Assembly: GCA_950295325.1 (NCBI GenBank)
Contig: OX485809.1
Coordinates: forward strand, 6,634,001-6,698,000
Origin: Polytrichum commune
Lineage: Eukaryota; Streptophyta; Polytrichopsida; Polytrichales; Polytrichaceae
Length of the DNA: 64,000 bases
Direction of reading: 5' to 3'
Under the pieces are notes generated by a model. It made no database searches. It was not told the DNA's origin and saw nothing but the letters and a program-made list of their open reading frames with translations. Positions within the stretch are counted from its first letter, which is position 1, and each line of letters begins with the position of its first letter. Shown here one piece after another: positions 20,492-51,203 of this stretch. The position numbers were made by a program, and so were the translations under genes.

Positions 20492-23400
20492 ATGTCAACA
20501 TCCAGTGCTACAGCTGTGGCTCTGGTTGTGGTGGCTGTATGGGTAGCCCTCGCCGCTCATGGGTGTGAGGCGAGACATAGAGCTCATCAAACAGGCCATA
20601 ATGTAGGCTTCGGCAGGTCTCTAGCTGCGGCTCTTCAGGCTTCCAATGTCACTGGGATGACGTACCGGCCTCCCATCGTCAACTACAAGTACCAAGGTGG
20701 ACCAGTAAGTTATAAGCACACACTAATAAAACATAAATAAAAACTTAATTATGCCTTCCTCATGTGATTGCTGCTGCAGCTCTGCATCACCACCGATCAT
20801 GCATCAACATTCCGTGTGTATATTGTCGACGTAACGGCATCATCAAAATCATGAAGCTATAGCTCAATGATCACCAATTGCTGATGAATTTGGGGGTTTC
20901 AACGTCGGGGATGAGCGAGAGCGAGAGTTGATGCTTCACGCTTTGATCAACGTAGAATGGGCTCTTATATAAACTCGACACGGAGCTAGGCTATGGCCCG
21001 ATCGACTGGCTGCGCTGTTTAGTTGTGTTTGATTTTGGGATGCTTTTGGTCGATCGTGTGTGTAGTCTTTCGTGATACGGAGTGTTGGGAAAGGATTCTA
21101 GGGGGTGTGGTATTGCTTTGGATGGTCTGGTTGGTTGCTTTGCAAGACGGGTTGTTCTGGGAGTCGCTGACTTTGTTGTGGGGATAGAGGACTATTAGAA
21201 ATTGAAATATAATCTGGTTTCGTACATCTAAAAGTTGTGTGACACTGTGTGATGGTGTGTTGACGACTAATTGCGTCCTCGTACAATTTGTATGCAAGCT
21301 TCTGAGGGAAGGGTTTCCCTTCTGAATCATGCAAATTTTTTCCCTGGATCAATTGGGTTTGATCTTCAGCGTTTGACCAAAGGGGTTGATCCACCATGTG
21401 ATATATGGGTTTGTATGCGGATCATGTGGAAGCCGTTCCATGTCCATTCCGTGTGGTAGTTCGTCTCGTGGTTCAATTTTGGGGGTCGCTTTGTTTCTTT
21501 TAAGGGACAGAATTTGATTGGAATGTGATATGGTTTTGTGCATCTTAATGTTGTGTGATGCTGAATGGTGGTGGGGGTACTGTTGACTTGCATCCTGCTG
21601 GAACAACATGATTATCTAACGAAGCTTGAGGTTTACTACTGTCTGATTCATGCACTTGGTTTTGATCTTCCAGGCGCGCATTTGACTAATTTTGGGTGTG
21701 ATCGATCGATGTTAATCAGTCATGTGATGATGGTTCTTGTCTTGCAGATCATCTGAGAACTGATCCATCTCTACGTCGTGTAGTACTTCGTGTGGTTCTA
21801 GTGAGAGTCACTTTGTTTATTGGGGGACAGATTCTGATTGAAATGTTATATGGTTTTGTACACCTCAAAGCTATGGTACGCTAAGTGGTGGTGGGATACT
21901 ACTGACTTGCATCCCGCTGGAACATCATAAATTTGATTTATCCAAGCTTGAGGGGTTACCACCGTCTGGTTCATGCACTTGGTTTTTATCATCCAGGCGC
22001 GCGTTTGACCAATTTTGGGTGTGATCGATCAATAATCATTTCATGGGTCGATGGATTTCGATCGTTTTGCAGATCATCTGGAGATCGATCCACCTCTACT
22101 TTGTATGGTACGGCACCTGGACTGAGACACAGAAGAACCTGGTACGCACGGCTGCCCAGTCACTGACACCGAGCAAGCCCATCACACAGTGGCCAAATCT
22201 GAGCAACCTGTGGCAGATCGAGCGCGAGTTTTACCAGGAGCTTCCCGGGGAGGCCCGCAAGTACGTGAGCGGCTCGGTGACGATCGCAGGCGAGACCGAT
22301 GACCACTACTCACAGGGATCCAACTTCGACAACGGTGCCGATCCCTCCACGATCCTCCTCACGCATGTTGGGAATGGGAAAGGGCAGCTCCCCAAGGACT
22401 TCGACCAGGGGGTTTACTTCCTGTTCGCATCTGGTGATGTGGTGTTGGGGAGTGGGAGCTCATGCTCTTACCACGATTACGCTTGCCCTGGCGGGAATGA
22501 CTCCACCTGCCCCGCCTTGACCGACAACATGGTGTATTCCTTCATCCCGCTCGTGTCTGCGAAGAACGGGCTCCTGCACGGCTGCAACATCTTCCAACAA
22601 CCTGGCAGCAACGGCATGGCTGGTCCCCCTCCTAACAAGGCCATCTCCGCTGACGGAGCCCTCGATGGGCTCGTCAACAGCTTCGTCCACCAGCTCTTCC
22701 GCACTGTTGTCGACCCCTACTTCACCGCCTGGTGTGTCCTTTCACTCTCATTCTCATAGATAGATAGATAGATAGATAGACAGAGAGCGAGAGAGCTTCA
22801 CAAGTTTGGTGGGCCAAGCTAAAAGAATATTATGAGCCTTGTTGATGTGTGCCTAAGGTGGTGGAGCTTGGTGCATTCCTATTTTGGATTGATTTTCAAG
22901 TTCAAGCTGACATGACTAACTTACACATTCAAGTTCGGCTTGAACTCGAAAACCAAATCCCAAATAAGCGGGACCCATCTTGAGACAAAGTTCCACCATC
23001 TTTGGGCACATGCAAGGGTTGAAATCTTTTGCATTGGCCCCCCAAACTTGCAAGCTTTAGGGCAAGGCCACTCACCCTGCATCTGCATCTGCATCTGCAC
23101 TTTTACATACGCGATACAGATGTATATGTAGGGAAGTGGCCGGCCCATTCAACCTACTACTTACATTTGTCGGATGAATTTTTTCCTAGGAAGTAGAACT
23201 CCCTCCATTTTGTTAAAATAAGCAGGGAGCCTGCTATTCAAGTAGGACAAAGCTCTTTATGCAGTACACTCACTAAAAACAACCTGAATTAGTAGCTAGT
23301 TAGTTGGAGATAGGTAATACACATTGAGCTGACGACAACCATGCACCACCCATGCCTGCATTCCCGAAGTCATTGTTCTCTTTGAAGAAGATTGAACTCA

Positions 23401-25862
23401 AATTATGTGAGGCAACTCTAGAGACTCTGATTCATTCTACCTAATGGAGATGGGCTTGAGCTTGAAGCCCAAGCTCAAGCTTGCAAGTTTGGTGGACAAG
23501 GTATGTTGTGAATAACAATGAGCCTTTGTGTGTGCCTAAGATGGTGGAGCTTTGTTATTTCTTGTTTTGTAAGTTGAACTTGTAGTCATCAAATTGACAT
23601 GACTAGAAGTTCAAGTTTGGGCTTGAAAATCAATCCAAAAGAAGTGGAAGCGAAAACCAACCTTGAGACTAAGTTCCACTATCTTAGGCACATGTGAGAG
23701 CTAAAGTCTTTTACCTTGGTCCACCATATTTGCAAGCTTGAGGTTAAGTTCAAGTCCTTAGAGAATGATGTCCTGTGAGGCAACCCTTAGAGAACGACCC
23801 GACCTTAAAGACAAGCTTGCAAGTTTGGCGAACCCATTTGTATGCCTTAAGTGGTGGAGCTTGGGATTGATTTTTGAGTTCAAGCCCAAACTTGAACTTG
23901 TACTCGTTGGACTTGACATGATTACAAGTTGAATATTTGGGATTAAACTTAGAATTCAAGTTCAAAAAGGCAAGGATTACCCTTGAAACTTAGCTCCACC
24001 ATCTTAGGCACATGTAAGGGCTCAAATCCTTCTACCTTGGCCTACCAAACTTTGCAAGTTGACTGTTGCTTGAGCTCGAGCTCAAGTTTTTCGTTAGACC
24101 CCAAGGGAAAGAAATCGGCCATTTGACTTCCTCTCATCCCAGAGTCTCTTTTATTCATATATAGATTACACATGTAGTCTCTCGACACTTCGCGTCCAGA
24201 TACCAGAACGCCAATCACTTGATTGTTCATCTACTCTGAAGCTTTAGTTCCTTGAATCTAAAATGTATACGGCCACTTGAGAGCTTTTGGTGATCAGATA
24301 ACTTACTCTTCGAATTCCACCAGGTACCACAACACCAGTGAGAACAGCGAGACGACCGAGATGTGCGCATGGACGTTCGCGGCCGGCGACTGGAACTACT
24401 GCGGTGACAAGAGCGTCTTTGCATCCGACTTCCCGGCTGGCATGCCGTTCCCGTGCATGAGCTTCCCCAATTCTCACGCGCTCATCGACCCGTCCTCCCA
24501 CTCGCAGTTCACCCAGTACGGGATTGACGGCTCCAAGTTCATGATCCAAAAGATGTGGAACCTAGAGAGCAAGGGCTGCGCGTCGCAAATTGAAGGTGAG
24601 TCGGACTGGAAATGGATTAATGTAGACAATATGATTGGTGAACAGTCATGGTGCTGGAAGTTTCTTTACCTCACCAAAGCCTTCTCTCCTTGCTCCATGT
24701 CCAACTCATCAATATTCTTCTTCACCCACACAAACACACACACCCAGGTCCACACATAAGCTTACCATAGAACCCAAAGAGAATCATTGGGTACTGTGTT
24801 ACAATTTACCATAAATGTATAGTTTCCCAATTTCCCTATCATCTACAGGCTGCATATAGTTGTTCTCCCTCCTTGGTACTAGCTCATGGGTACCTCCTAC
24901 ATTTGCCAAAAAGTCCTCCTTCCTTCTATCCTTTGTTCCGAATCCCCCAACTTGCTTTCCCTATCTTACTGTAGACTGGCACCAGTGTTGCACTATAATC
25001 ACTATCACTTGGGTCCTTGCCAATGTATGAACTAATTTGGCGCAAGTTTATCACAAGGTGGCAATCTCAAATCTCAAGGAGAATATTTTGTTGGAAAAAG
25101 AGGATTTTTGTTTTTCAGTTTTGAAATTCTGAAATCAGGCAAACAGATTATTAATGGTAAAGTTTTGGATGAATACCGTATTATGTCAGACTCATATCAT
25201 GGAATAGGAATCTTCTATGACGGTGAGTACCACTTTGACTGCTATAACAAAATAATTTAACATACATTGGTCACTACTGGGAGGGGCTTGATGAGTTTAG
25301 TAGGGGAGGAACAGTGCACCATCAAGTTGGCTTGGTTACGTATAATTGAAAAAGTCTACAATGTAGGGGAGGGCGAGGGAGAGGAGAGTCTATAATTCAT
25401 GGCCAACATTGGCATTAACTTCTTCAGATTTTTTGCTTGTTTTTGTTTTTGGTTTGTTTTGTTTTTGATGATTGATTGTTTCTGTGTGTAGGGGCGTGTT
25501 CCAAGAACACGGTGATCCTCACATCGCCCCAGGGCACAATACAGAGAGGCCTCTACTTCAATGGAGTGTGGATGCAGGGGTATGCGCCTGGTCAGAATTG
25601 CAATTGGAAGATCTACGTGCCTGGTGCAAAGAGCCTCACTCTAACCTTCGACAAGGTGGCCCTCGCCTATGATAAGTTGGATTACGTGACAGTGGCCCAC
25701 AACAATGTCGTGATCCAAACGTTGACCGGCTTTGGTTCGAACATTGGGGTGAAAATATCAGGAAAGGAGGCCACCATATCCTTTGTTACAGATGGGAGCA
25801 GAGCGCCCTACCCAGATTCCGCAGGCTTCATCTTGCGCTACGCCGCAGGTAGATACGCTTAA
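20492..25862 (+). CDS. Secreted EXORDIUM-like protein fused to a C-terminal CUB domain
   Basis: Exons 20492-20704, 22073-22731, 24324-24595 and 25492-25862 join in phase to 505 codons including the stop (504 residues). Residues 1-28 are a signal peptide (VALVVVAVWVALAAHGCEA), so the ATG at 20492 is preferred over the longer open frame upstream. Residues about 60-380 are an EXORDIUM/phi-1 (phosphate-induced protein 1) domain: VNYKYQGGP, FVWYGTWTETQKN, CSYHDYACPG, the second half with ADGALDGLVNS, FTAWYHNTSE, and the closing YGIDGSKFMIQKMW. EXORDIUM proteins act in the apoplast in growth and carbon responses; no enzyme activity is established. Residues about 384-500 form a CUB domain: NTVILTSPQG, NCNWKIYVPG, LTLTFDKVAL, LDYVTV, ATISFVTDGS and AGFILRY. 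CUB domains bind proteins or sugars extracellularly and are rare in plants. The CUB is a single final exon joined at phase 1. Confidence 0.85.
20705..22072 (+). repeat. Intron 1 of EXORDIUM-CUB: three tandem copies of a ~325-base unit
   Basis: Units at about 21140-21455, 21456-21785 and 21786-22110 align through GTTGTGTGA, TTGCATCC(C/T)GCTGGAACA, CATGCACTTGGTTTT, CCAGGCGCGC and AATTTTGGGTGTGATCGATC. The third unit contains the functional acceptor (TTTTGCAG at 22065-22072) and the first bases of exon 2. The second has a parallel CTTGCAG at 21741-21747 followed by a decayed exon start with a stop codon. The first unit is the most diverged. Confidence 0.7.
20967..20976 (+). promoter_or_regulatory. 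Strong TATA-box-like sequence inside intron 1
   Basis: TTATATAAAC lies in a GC-rich stretch of intron 1. Exon 2 is preceded by an in-frame ATG at 22043 that reads through the acceptor into exon 2. A transcript starting here could thus encode the protein without its signal peptide. This is inference from sequence only. Confidence 0.3.
22756..22782. repeat. GATA microsatellite
   Basis: About six tandem TAGA/GATA units just after the exon 2 donor of the EXORDIUM-CUB gene. Confidence 0.85.
22796..23056. mobile_element. Foldback MITE, copy 1 of 3, in EXORDIUM-CUB intron 2
   Basis: Begins CAAGTTTGGTGGGCCAAG and ends CCCCCCAAACTTGCAAGC. Internal arms pair too: GTGCCTAAGGTGGTGGAGCT near the left against AGTTCCACCATCTTTGGGCA near the right. 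Non-coding. Related copies follow at 23479 and 23814. Confidence 0.65.
23479..23739. mobile_element. Foldback MITE, copy 2 of 3, in EXORDIUM-CUB intron 2
   Basis: Begins GCTTGCAAGTTTGGTGGAC and ends TCCACCATATTTGCAAGC. It has the same inner arms as copy 1 (GTGCCTAAGATGGTGGAGCT against AGTTCCACTATCTTAGGCAC). The left side is preceded by palindromic AAGCTCAAGCTTG strings. Confidence 0.65.
23814..24060. mobile_element. Foldback MITE, copy 3 of 3, in EXORDIUM-CUB intron 2
   Basis: Begins GCTTGCAAGTTTGGCGAAC and ends CCTACCAAACTTTGCAAG, with inner arms GCCTTAAGTGGTGGAGCTT and AGCTCCACCATCTTAGGC. The three copies are evenly spaced, and no TSD could be fixed. Confidence 0.6.
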
Positions 25863-46342: not shown

Positions 46343-49300
46343 ATGGACACGATTATTACAACAACATACGACGACCTTGATCGACGTCAGACTAACGGCA
46401 ATGCCGAAGAAGACGTAATCCAAAGTGGTGGATTGTATCATAGTAGCAATGTTGATGTTGCTCGTGATGACACATTATGCGTCAATCCTCTTACTCCAGC
46501 TGCCATCGACAAGTCCAGGCTCGACGAGGTGAAGGGCTAGTTTTTTTTGCTTTGGTGGCAAAGTTAATTCATTCATGGTTGTAAGCTTCTGGTCTTGTTT
46601 TCGTATGCATATACAGTTCCATTTATGTTCGGATACAAATGGTGTTTTCTTAAGGCAAAGTTTCCTGTTCGGAATAATATTACGATTTTGCTTATAGTAG
46701 GAAATTGAAGTAAATCCATTCATGTTGGGCGATCATATGGGGATTGCGGTGATGCTTTTTGTAGTCCAAAGCTTCATCGTAGGCGACCGAAGTTCCACTC
46801 ACGTCAACTGGGCATTCATGGTCGAATTATCACAGTGGCTATCATAGTAACGATATAATTGCTCGTGACACGACATTCTGCATTCATTGATCCTTTGTCG
46901 CAGGCCGTCGATTATAAGTCCACTATGTTAAGATCAGAAGAAGATCCCTTATATTGGCGCCGCACCGCAAGCGCCATGACAGGCAGCCACCTCGAGGAGG
47001 TGAAGGCACTCGTGAAGACGTTCTTCGAGTGCAAGCAAGTGGTGTTGGAGGGGGGCAGCTTGACGGTAGCCCATGTGGCGGCCGTCGCTCGCCGTCCCGC
47101 CCGCGAGGTGCAGGTCGTGTTAAACGGCACCATCGCGAGGAGCCGGGTGGAAGAGAGCGCCCGCTGGGTGGAGGACAAGATCGCCAACGGCGGCGACATC
47201 TATGGCGTCACGACGGGGTTCGGTGCGACGTCGCACAGGAGGACACAGCAAGGCCAAGAGCTCCAGACTGAACTCATCAGGTAATTGGTTAAAATGATTA
47301 CTTAATCACATCTCGTCAATGGTTACGTTACGTGCTTGAATGTTTGAATAATGGATCGATTTTGCTCATCCGTGCAATTTGGGCTCTCGTGATTGATTGT
47401 TTGCAAAGATAGTGGTGCTTTTTGTAGATGAATTTCCAATTACGTCCGGAAGTTTGTAGTGGTTTTTGTAGGCAGACCGCTGATGTTGGGCAAACCGTTG
47501 GGTTTTTTTGTTGGTGCTTTGTAGGCGAAGATCTATTCTTATTCGGATTCACGTGGTGCTTGTTGTAAGCATGAATAGCATTCATGTGTTGGAAGATCGT
47601 GGTTCTTTTTTTAGGCACAGCATTCATGTTGACATCATGATGCTTTGTGCAGGCTCATTACCTCTGTTTGGATTAATGGTGTTTTTGTAGGGAAAGTTCC
47701 ATTCGTGTCCGGAAGATTGTGGTGCATTTTATGGGCACACCACTCTTGTTTGGATGATGGTGGTACTTTTTATACTTTTAGGCAGACCATTCATGTTCCC
47801 TTTGTGGAGGTTTTTGTAGGCAAACTTTCCTTTCATGTTCGGAAGATGATTGTGGTAATTTCTCAAGGCAAACCATTCATGTTAATGAGCATTGATGTAT
47901 GTTTATGATGTTTTTGTAAGCCAAAGTCCCACTGCTGTTCGGATCGTGGTGCTGTCGCAAGCAAACCATTCATGTAGAGCATTCGCATATAGATTATTGT
48001 GTATTACATTGTAAGCAAAGGTAATCTTTAATCTCATGTTCGGAAGTGCTTAAATTGTGTTATAGGTTCCTGAATGCGGGAGTGGTAGACTCAGCTGGCA
48101 ACACTTTGGCCATGAGCACCACCCGGGCGGCCATGCTGGTGCGCACCAACACCCTGTTGCAAGGATACTCTGGGATCCGATGGAAGATTTTAATGGCGAT
48201 GGAGAAACTTCTCAATGCCCAAATCACTCCCAAACTCCCACTCCGAGGCACCATCACAGCCTCCGGCGATCTTGTTCCACTATCTTATATCGCGGGTAAG
48301 TAAGACATAATAGTAATCAAAGATCGTCATCTTGCTGACTGCCATTCAAGGCACTATTATAGACTTTCCTGAAATCTGTCGTTGCACTCGTGATGTAATT
48401 ATATATATGTATATATATAAAGGTTCAAACCACGGAGGAAGGCATGCCAGTACTCTAAGATGGCGGGTATAATACCTTGTATTCGGAAAAGGTCGTCGAC
48501 TAAAAATTAGTGCCCCAGGATGCAATTAGAATGGCATAACCTTGATGGAACCCATGTGCATAAACCATTCCCCCTTTGAGATCTCACTTTGGACACGGCA
48601 ACTTTACACTCGCTCAAGCTATTGAGAGCTTGAGGATTAGTCAACAAGAAGTTTACACTTCAGCCATGATGTGGCCGAGGAATGTTTCACTCATCACTTT
48701 TGTAATATCATGACATGGATCCCTTGTGTTTGTATCTAATTCCTTGTGCTAAATCTATTTGGCTTAGAAGAAGGGTACTTGGAGGGCTATTGAAGATTAA
48801 ATTACAAGACATAAATCGTCAATATTTTCCTTACCAAGAACGACTTCTCCACAGGGCTCCTCACAGCAAGAACCAACTCCAAGGCCGTCACGGAGGCCGG
48901 AACAACTGTGTCGGCTGTGGAAGGTTTGAAGATTGCAGGCATCAAAAAACCAATCACATTGCGCCCAAAGGAAGGGCTGGCTATGGTGAATGGCACTGCA
49001 GTGGGCTCAGCTTTAGCCTCCACAGTTTGTTTCGATGCCAACATTCTTGTGGTGTTGGCAGAGGTTTTGTCAGCTCTTTTCTGTGAGGTGATGCAAGGGA
49101 AGCCTGAATTCGCTGACCATCTAACCCATCGGCTGAAACACCACCCGGGGCAGATGGAGGCGGCAGCTATCATGGAATGGGTACTGGATGGAAGCGCATA
49201 CATGAAGCACGCCAAATTGCAGCAAGACGAGACTAATAATCTGAAGAAGCCCAAGCAGGATCGATATGCTCTTCGAACCTCACCCCAGTGGCTGGGTCCT

Positions 49301-51203
49301 CAGGTAGGAAACTGTGAATTTTTCTACTCCACTGACACAATCTGTGAAGGCAGCATGTGTTGGGAGTGGAATCTGTGGTTTGTGTTGAGATTGTATTCCG
49401 CGCCCATTCTGCTTTTGTCAGATTCCTGAACTGTTTGAAGCAACAAACATACTGATGAATTTGTTGGAATTCAGTGGCTTGCATTGAGATTATGTTCCAC
49501 ATTTGTCAGATTTCTGTATTGTTGGAAGTTTAAGTCCCATTAAACATGCTGATGATTATGTTGAGACTTCTTCTGTGGCTTATGTTGATATCGTATTCTG
49601 CACTTGTCGGATTTCTGTATTGTTGGAAGCAACAAACATACTGATGAATATACATGTTGGATATATTGTGGTTATGTTGAGTCTAAGTTTTACATTTGTC
49701 AGATTTCTGTTTTTGTTGGAGTTTTTAAGCCATCGGCCGTTTTCGAATCCAGCAAACATGCTGATGATAATCTTGGGGATTCTTCTGTGTACTTCTGTTG
49801 AGATTGTGTCCTATGCTGAAATTTGTCAGATCTCTGTACCGTTGCCAGTTTTGGACACAAGAATTAACAAGCTGATGAATATGTTGAGACCACTTCTGTG
49901 GCTCATGTGGAGATTGTGTTCCACATTTGCCAGTGTTCTGTATTGTTGGGAGTTTAAGACCATGAAACAACTTAGAATGCTGTTGAACTTGTTGCCATGA
50001 ATTCATCGGCGTCTTATTTTGAAATTGCGTCCTTCACAATTAGGGCGCATTGGTCAGAATTCTGTAAATTACTGGAAGTTTTGATTACTGATTTCATTGT
50101 TCTACTCCGCATTATCTCTTCGTGATCAGGTGGAGGTGATTCGCAACGCCACCCACTCCATCCAGCGGGAGATCAACTCCGTGAACGACAACCCGCTCAT
50201 CGATGCAGCAGGCGACCGAGCCCTTCACGGCGGCAACTTCCAGGGCACACCAATCGGCGTGTCCATGGACAACTTACGCCTCGCCATAGCCGCGATCGGC
50301 AAGCTGACGTTCGCGCAATTCTCCGAGCTCACCAACGACTACTACAACAACGGCCTACCGTCCAACCTGAGCGGGGGGCCAAACCCTAGCCTCGACTACG
50401 GGATGAAAGGCGCCGAGATTGCCATGGCTTCCTATCTCTCGGAACTAAACCACTTGGCCAATCCAGTCACCACGCATGTGCAAAGCGCTGAGCAACATAA
50501 CCAAGACATCAATTCCCTCGGTTTAGTATCCGCACGCAAAAGCGAAGAAGCCATCGAAATTCTCAAGCTTATGAGCTCCACTTTCTTAATCGGCCTTTGC
50601 CAGGCAATTGACCTTCGCCATCTCGAAGAGACGATGCAAGCCACCGTAAAGGTTATCATCGCGCAAGTTGCGAGGAAGACTTTGTTTCTAGGTCAAAACG
50701 GTTACAGCCTCCTGCCTGCGCGATTCTCCGAGAAAGATTTGTTCAAAGTGGTGGACGAGTTGCATGTATTCAACTACATCGATGACGCATCAAACTTAAC
50801 CTACCCCTTGATGGAGAAGCTGCGACAAGTTTTGGTCGACCATGCGCTCCAGAACCTCACTAAGACCGATTCAGACACTTCGATTTTTCAGAAGATTTCC
50901 GTGTTCGAGGACGAGCTTCGAAGGCGGTTGGAAATCGAAGTGCCTTTGGCTCGCGGGGATTATGATACTAATAAGGAATTTTCGGCGGTCCCGAACCGAA
51001 TTTTGGATTGCCGAAGTTACCCGATCTATCAATTTGTGCGGACGGGGCTGGAGACGAAGTTGATTTCGGGAATGCGAACGATTTCCCCGGGTGAAGATAT
51101 TGAGAAAGTTTACGATGCCATCTGCCAAGGGAAGCATGTCGCTCCGCTGCTTCGGTGCATCCACGGGTGGACCGGTGCTCCGGGACCGTTTCCTGCAAGT
51201 TGA
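46343..51203 (+). CDS. PAL: Phenylalanine ammonia-lyase, complete, five exons
   Basis: Deaminates L-phenylalanine to trans-cinnamate, the entry step of the phenylpropanoid pathway; a cytosolic homotetramer in plants. Exons 46343-46528, 46904-47280, 48066-48295, 48855-49303 and 50130-51203 join in phase to 772 codons (771 residues), slightly longer than the usual 700-740 because of an N-terminal extension. Seen: YGVTTGFGA with the catalytic Tyr near 162; RFLNAG near 188-193, retaining the Phe (not His) of Phe-selective enzymes; the MIO-forming Ala-Ser-Gly at 253-255 in [64 protein letters not shown]; and the C-terminal [19 protein letters not shown]. Intron 2 splits the Arg codon before FLNAG in phase 2, the position of the conserved angiosperm PAL intron. 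The other three introns are extra compared with typical seed-plant genes. The start is the ATG at 46343, and exon 1 ends in LDE at a phase-0 donor. Confidence 0.93.
46560..47985 (+). repeat. Degenerate ~50-base tandem repeats in PAL introns 1 and 2
   Basis: The unit is roughly CATTCATGTTCGGAAGAT plus GTGGTGNTTTTTGTAGGC plus AAA. It recurs about a dozen times in intron 2 (about 47405-47985) and a few times in intron 1 (about 46570-46840). Many units contain TTTTTGTAGG, which has the form of a 3' splice site. Coding exon 2 interrupts the array without trace of it. Confidence 0.7.
49330..50110 (+). repeat. ~100-base tandem repeats in PAL intron 4
   Basis: About six to seven degenerate units of TTTGTCAGATTTCTGTATTG, TTGGAAGTTTAAG, AAACATGCTGATGA and GTTGAGA..CTTCTGTGGCT. 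Each unit has TTTGTCAG, again shaped like a splice acceptor. The true acceptor (GTGATCAG at 50122-50129) lies just after the array. Confidence 0.75.

Follow-up and report, generated by a model that had tools for sequence, protein, structure and literature searches.

The moss Polytrichum commune carries a gene in which an EXORDIUM (EXO) domain is, with near certainty, joined to a CUB domain. We found this gene in a stretch of 64,000 nucleotides that was analysed as a whole (in the following called the window). The preliminary description of this DNA had treated the fusion as a feature of a single gene. That observation is right but understated, since the gene is a member of a family. Across the genome, about 18 distinct loci show this arrangement, which is more than expected by chance and marks the fusion as old and family-wide, not as a one-off.

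Structure of the EXO-CUB gene in the window

The gene extends on the plus strand from an ATG at 20492 to the end of a TAA stop codon at 25862 and encodes 504 amino acids after splicing (Table 1). We enumerated the GT/AG combinations near the three introns, and just one of 36 yielded a single open frame, the one of 504 amino acids, with the introns in phases 0, 2 and 1, respectively. In a Pfam search, the spliced protein matched Phi_1 (PF04674; 2.4e-23, 83.3 bits, cut-off 25), CUB (PF00431; 3.4e-06, 27.8 bits, cut-off 21.4) and CUB_2 (PF02408; 3.8e-06, 27.1 bits); the CUB segment scored alone reached 31.6 bits with PF00431. With a single open splice and both domains above their Pfam cut-offs, the earlier reading as an in-phase gene of four exons holds. 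Its start, stop and 24595/25492 junction were exact, and the phase 1 assigned to this last junction is seen in the 504-residue splice.

The first 40 amino acids show a Kyte-Doolittle peak of 2.85 over 15 residues, and values do not exceed 1.33 further on. This strong hydrophobic stretch is consistent with a signal peptide, here predicted from hydropathy and perhaps cleaved after CEA; six modelled paralogues have a hydrophobic N-terminus as well. The first Met in the CUB frame is residue 409, already past the first CUB cysteine, so that the CUB frame alone would be unable to yield a secreted CUB protein.

Table 1 Features of the EXO-CUB gene, in positions of the window.
Feature	Position	Strand	Description	Basis
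Exon 1	20492..20704	+	Hydrophobic N-terminus, probable signal peptide, then YRPPIVNYKYQGGP lead-in	Splice, hydropathy
Intron 1 and start of exon 2	21188..22111	+	Tandem triplication of ~320 bp
Exon 2	22073..22731	+	EXORDIUM/Phi_1 domain, N-terminal and central part	Splice, Pfam
HQLFR site	22688..22702	+	Position of HExxE in relatives, degenerate in the window copy
Exon 3	24324..24595	+	EXORDIUM domain, C-terminal part; donor AAG/GTGAGT, phase 1
YGIDGSKFM motif	24517..24543	+	Inside exon 3	Read from sequence and translation
Intron 3	24596..25491	+	Phase 1, between the EXO and CUB coding parts
Exon 4	25492..25862	+	CUB domain (Cys1 codon 25497-25499) and stop codon TAA

Plant EXORDIUM and EXORDIUM-like proteins (PHI-1, PF04674) share with this protein the hydrophobic N-terminus, the Phi_1 domain, the YG(I/V)xGxxF block and a final cysteine. 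Each of the 11 plain EXO proteins read in this genome is encoded in a single open frame that closes three to six residues past the final cysteine; the set leaves out L036, a twelfth plain locus, which is split. Such an ending just after the C-terminal block is absent from the window gene, in which the CUB exon comes next. Compared to the plain proteins, EXO-CUB proteins thus have a phase-1 intron near the final cysteine and approximately 120 additional residues of CUB.

Two further features concern the introns of the window gene. Intron 2 (22732-24323, plus strand) interrupts a Trp codon, and in 15 aligned EXO-CUB relatives the match continues unbroken across its position, which suggests that this intron was gained in the window copy. 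The triplication around the start of exon 2 carries two decayed exon 2 starts (near 21412 and 21739), followed by the real one at 22064-22111. The first decayed copy, read by eye, reads IMWKPFHVHSVW and then a stop; the corresponding IMWKPIHVYFVW of the paralogues is nearer to this decayed copy than to the functional exon 2. Elsewhere in the window lies a multi-exon gene for an aromatic amino-acid lyase of the phenylalanine ammonia-lyase type (46859-51203), in which three open frames match PF00221 in order.

The EXO-CUB family and the origin of the fusion

We searched the genome of 407.8 Mb, of which 406.1 Mb lie on seven large contigs that we take to be chromosomes, with the window on the seventh. 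Using the window CUB as query gave 27 CUB matches and a divergent relative added 3, and the resulting 30 matches were paired with the 37 Phi_1 matches of the genome. Phi_1 loci were classed as canonical if their main match exceeded 230 bits and as divergent if it was below 140 bits. Downstream of the 12 canonical EXO loci, no same-strand CUB match lies within 20 kb; among the divergent loci, 21 of 22 have one within 10 kb. The sole divergent locus without CUB (C6:26748910, in the following C6:26.75M) contains two stop codons. Three of the 22 divergent loci are exact duplicates (L012, L014 and L021), and the roughly 18 distinct loci with EXO and CUB are distributed over six of the seven large contigs. 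Two of these 18 have fragmentary CUBs (C5:27.92M, and C3:0.32M with its fragment 8.8 kb away), and damage is also found at C7:8.17M, with an in-frame stop, and at C5:27.82M, where the CUB shifts frame.

Six further CUB matches are solitary, each covering only part of the domain. Two Pfam CUB models detected no CUB elsewhere in the genome among the best candidates, which were the ones scored, and with the same scope no complete CUB was found outside the EXO-CUB family. As to the statement that CUB domains are rare in land plants, the matches listed within this genome are all EXO-CUB loci or partial copies.

Some copies are identical over several kilobases. The loci C7:41.55M and C7:41.58M (L011/L012) are inverted, about 29 kb apart and 100% identical over 3.8 kb, as are C2:40.36M and C2:40.39M (L013/L014) at a distance of about 24 kb and over 3.5 kb. 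Both pairs are either large palindromes or fold-back assembly errors. The locus on the 31 kb contig C46 (L021) shows 100% identity over 5.3 kb to C3:42.50M (L020), and C46 is probably an unplaced duplicate contig. A cluster of four plain EXO genes occupies about 120 kb at C1:60516738-60634962.

The junction between both parts is conserved in position and phase. In all 16 EXO-CUB loci compared, a phase-1 GT donor towards the end of EXO is separated by exactly 40 nt from the beginning of a shared Trp codon, and a phase-1 AG acceptor lies exactly 5 nt ahead of the first CUB cysteine codon. The triplet before the donor is AAG, AGG or TTG in 14 of the 16, and CGC in C2:7.83M and C2:7.97M. Full models of six paralogues all splice, with the first intron in phase 0 and the CUB junction in phase 1.

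We built separate trees for the EXO and the CUB parts, leaving out the duplicates L012, L014 and L021, the loci with fragmentary CUBs (C5:27.92M and C3:0.32M) and C6:26.75M, which has no CUB. Both trees have 12 of 13 splits in common, the one discordant split being the attachment point of the window gene. The pairwise distances of both parts are correlated (0.877), a value that none of 5000 permutations reached. In a tree of 16 EXO-CUB, 11 canonical EXO and nine bacterial Phi_1 domains (without the split L036 and five of 14 bacterial loci, but with the bacterial L054, which matches no Pfam family), the EXO-CUB domains form one clade, with a FastTree support of 0.993 and a UFBoot value of only 86, beside a clade of the canonical EXO domains (0.988 and 99, respectively). 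Congruent trees together with this clade point to one ancestral fusion, followed by joint duplication. The CUB of the window gene is 37 to 63% identical to the 15 others compared; with the four nearest relatives, identity is 60-63% in CUB and 48-51% in the EXO core, and over all 120 pairs both parts are on average equally conserved.

The CUB exon is under purifying selection in well-diverged, unsaturated pairs. Its dN/dS ranges from 0.16 to 0.29 in six pairs with dS between 0.09 and 1.7: 0.24 and 0.27 for the window gene against two close relatives (dS about 1.2, hence approximate), 0.16, 0.18 and 0.28 in three further diverged pairs, and 0.29 in one younger pair. Among the youngest copies selection is apparently weak, with dN/dS of 0.57-1.2 in the EXO core. 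The three remaining young pairs gave 0.40, 0.46 and 1.5 for CUB, the last two based on five and six changes, and in two of the three, one of the copies is interrupted by an in-frame stop. The underlying table has 22 cells, three of which were not computed as the segment was not in one frame, and six are saturated.

According to these results, it is very improbable that CUB is encoded by a gene of its own, or that its exon is a dead remnant downstream of an EXO gene terminating in intron 3. In favour of such an ending, the EXO frame can extend about 55 residues into intron 3, with a stop near 24759. However, the CUB frame has no Met before residue 409 and therefore lacks its own signal peptide, donor and acceptor occupy the same place in phase 1 in 16 of 16 loci, the EXO and CUB trees are concordant, and dN/dS of the window CUB against both close relatives is 0.24 and 0.27. 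We therefore rejected a separate CUB gene on the missing early Met and the shared junction. The preliminary description had likened the last exon, joined at phase 1, to exon capture, which fits a possible start of the fusion, but a recent capture private to the window gene, although a phase-1 intron does set off its CUB as a last exon, is refuted within this genome by the like junctions and CUBs at the distinct loci on six large contigs, by their graded identity within a single clade and by the congruent trees, which make the event ancestral to the whole family.

Hence, an ancestral Phi_1 gene would have gained a CUB exon via a phase-1 intron, a few codons past the usual last EXO cysteine, and the joined gene would then have duplicated as one unit. 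No donor CUB gene appeared in the genome searches, in which the best candidates were scored. For a viral source, 23 stretches on viral contigs matched the search pattern and none was confirmed; for a prokaryotic source, none was confirmed out of 24 on genome contigs; and plasmids gave no match, in scans that all reach fairly close relatives only.

The CUB and EXO domains and their relatives

We aligned the CUBs of 14 of the 16 loci, omitting C7:8.17M and C2:7.97M, and all 14 match PF00431 at E ≤ 0.01. Compared with solved chains, the family CUB profile matched cubilin (7e-12) and procollagen C-endopeptidase enhancer 1 (PCPE-1; 8e-10), both scores being summed over several weak domain hits, as well as MASP-1 (1.5e-05) in one match of 28 bits. 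Two aspartates and the cysteines C3 and C37, predicted to pair as the first disulphide (Cys1-Cys2), are invariant in the aligned CUBs. The window CUB has only these two cysteines and thus misses the second disulphide (Cys3-Cys4); among the 16 family segments, 13 have two cysteines, one has four and two shortened ones have one.

The calcium site of CUB domains is taken here as Glu, Asp and Asp at their usual spacing. The Asp of the xDYxxV core is invariant in all 14 CUBs, and the place of the Glu is occupied by Glu in none. The window copy and two relatives retain the second Asp; ten others have Tyr, Phe, His or Ser there, and one shortened copy lacks the position. As the Glu and the second Asp are mostly absent, the window CUB should not be filed as calcium-binding. 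The family thus shares the profile match, the Cys1-Cys2 pair, the Y..G..C.W motif and the xDYxxV core with the animal CUBs of cubilin, PCPE-1 and MASP-1. Unlike these, it mostly lacks the calcium-site Glu and second Asp, the window copy lacks the second cysteine pair, and the domain is joined to Phi_1.

In the EXO part, 12 of 16 EXO-CUB proteins retain an HExxE motif, among them the C1:26.17M copy, but only 3 of the 11 plain EXO proteins do so, and it is lost in the window copy, which reads HQLFR. Phi_1-like domains also occur in scattered bacteria (L045-L058, L060, L062 and L063; Proteobacteria, Myxococcales, Actinomycetota and others), a wider spread than the single Solibacter protein mentioned in PMC2661892. 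Such domains are uncommon: in two phylum samples they occur in 2 of 398 and 3 of 282 genomes, each count including one seed. These secreted bacterial proteins share the EXO domain, HExxE and ExxDxC with the plant family. HExxE, ExxDxC and C(G/A)xH are found in 14 of 14, a biased count, since HExxE was itself among the two patterns by which these proteins were fetched. The fair test is given by three relatives fetched by Pfam only: HExxE and ExxDxC occur in each of them, together with CGxH in two and CANH in the third, all located by pattern in frame rather than by alignment. The motif set resembles a metal-binding or catalytic site, but the Phi_1/EXO profile had no credible match among solved chains, the one hit having an E-value of 0.71. 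Six of the 14 bacterial proteins were scanned with Pfam, with Phi_1 above the cut-off in L048 only, below it in L052, L055 and L058, and without a match in L054 and L056. Their additional regions are Ig-like, PKD, TIG or nothing above the cut-off, and never CUB.

In the literature we found no paper that combines the term CUB domain with EXORDIUM, and the matches listed contained neither a plant CUB family nor an EXO protein described as an enzyme. Searching for CUB domain together with land plants mostly returned papers on polyphenol oxidase, where CUB presumably denotes the copper-B site. In a microalgal study (PMC12664985), CUB, PF00431 and phi1 appear once each. The EXO-CUB architecture may already be present in protein databases, unremarked. 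A cotton study (PMC8481617) describes an EXO Clade V that is confined to a moss and a lycophyte, with nine Physcomitrium patens (P. patens) and two Selaginella moellendorffii (S. moellendorffii) proteins, besides another clade in which each of the nine species is represented. As far as the main text of that study goes, the letters "cub" occur only inside a journal DOI; Clade V may be the EXO-CUB family.

Possible action in the cell wall

On balance we favour, as moderately probable, a secreted EXO-CUB protein of an old and expanded family, in which CUB serves as a docking arm in the wall and the window copy is non-catalytic. The gene structure, the domains, the family, its co-inheritance, the junction and the constraint on CUB are observed, and we infer secretion, a ligand role of CUB and the non-catalytic state. 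The protein would be exported to the cell wall, where its EXO part may work in apoplastic growth signalling as in other plants. The CUB beta-sandwich with its single predicted disulphide may bind either a polymer of the wall or a partner protein, which would position the EXO part. Because it lacks the HExxE residues, the window copy would probably act by binding, not by catalysis.

Animal CUB domains mostly bind proteins or glycans, and by this analogy docking would be the simplest role; the new ligand- or sugar-binding arm that the preliminary description had proposed is plausible. An apoplastic location would be expected by analogy with Arabidopsis EXO, which is apoplastic (cell wall) and required in leaf cell expansion (PMC2661892).

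In a rival reading, which is unlikely, EXO-CUB proteins would act as metal-dependent hydrolases of the apoplast, with CUB presenting the substrate as in tolloid-type proteases and with window-like copies as inactive regulators. This would agree with the three motifs in the bacterial relatives, both the 14 with HExxE among their fetching patterns and the three fetched by Pfam only, and with the more frequent retention of HExxE in EXO-CUB than in plain EXO proteins. However, HExxE differs from HExxH, the Phi_1 profile has no credible match to a solved structure, the window copy lacks the HExxE residues, and the motifs of the three Pfam-only bacteria come from patterns in frame. To our knowledge, no EXO protein has been described as an enzyme.

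A broader version appears more doubtful still. In it, EXO-CUB proteins would be apoplastic metal-dependent enzymes of early land plants with a catalytic Phi_1 domain of bacterial descent that bears HExxE, the EXORDIUM proteins of angiosperms a CUB-less and often motif-less relic, and window-like copies pseudoenzymes that control the active members. If true, EXO-CUB proteins would be built like animal tolloid proteases, with CUB holding the substrate.

With EXO-CUB, a type of extracellular domain known mainly from animals would be present in a plant as a stable and expanded family. The growth of flowering plants is influenced by EXORDIUM proteins, and a family that retains a further, well-understood binding domain and in most members a candidate active-site motif gives two handles on their function, CUB to fish for a partner and HExxE to mutate. 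Its main value, real but moderate, lies in this way into EXORDIUM function.
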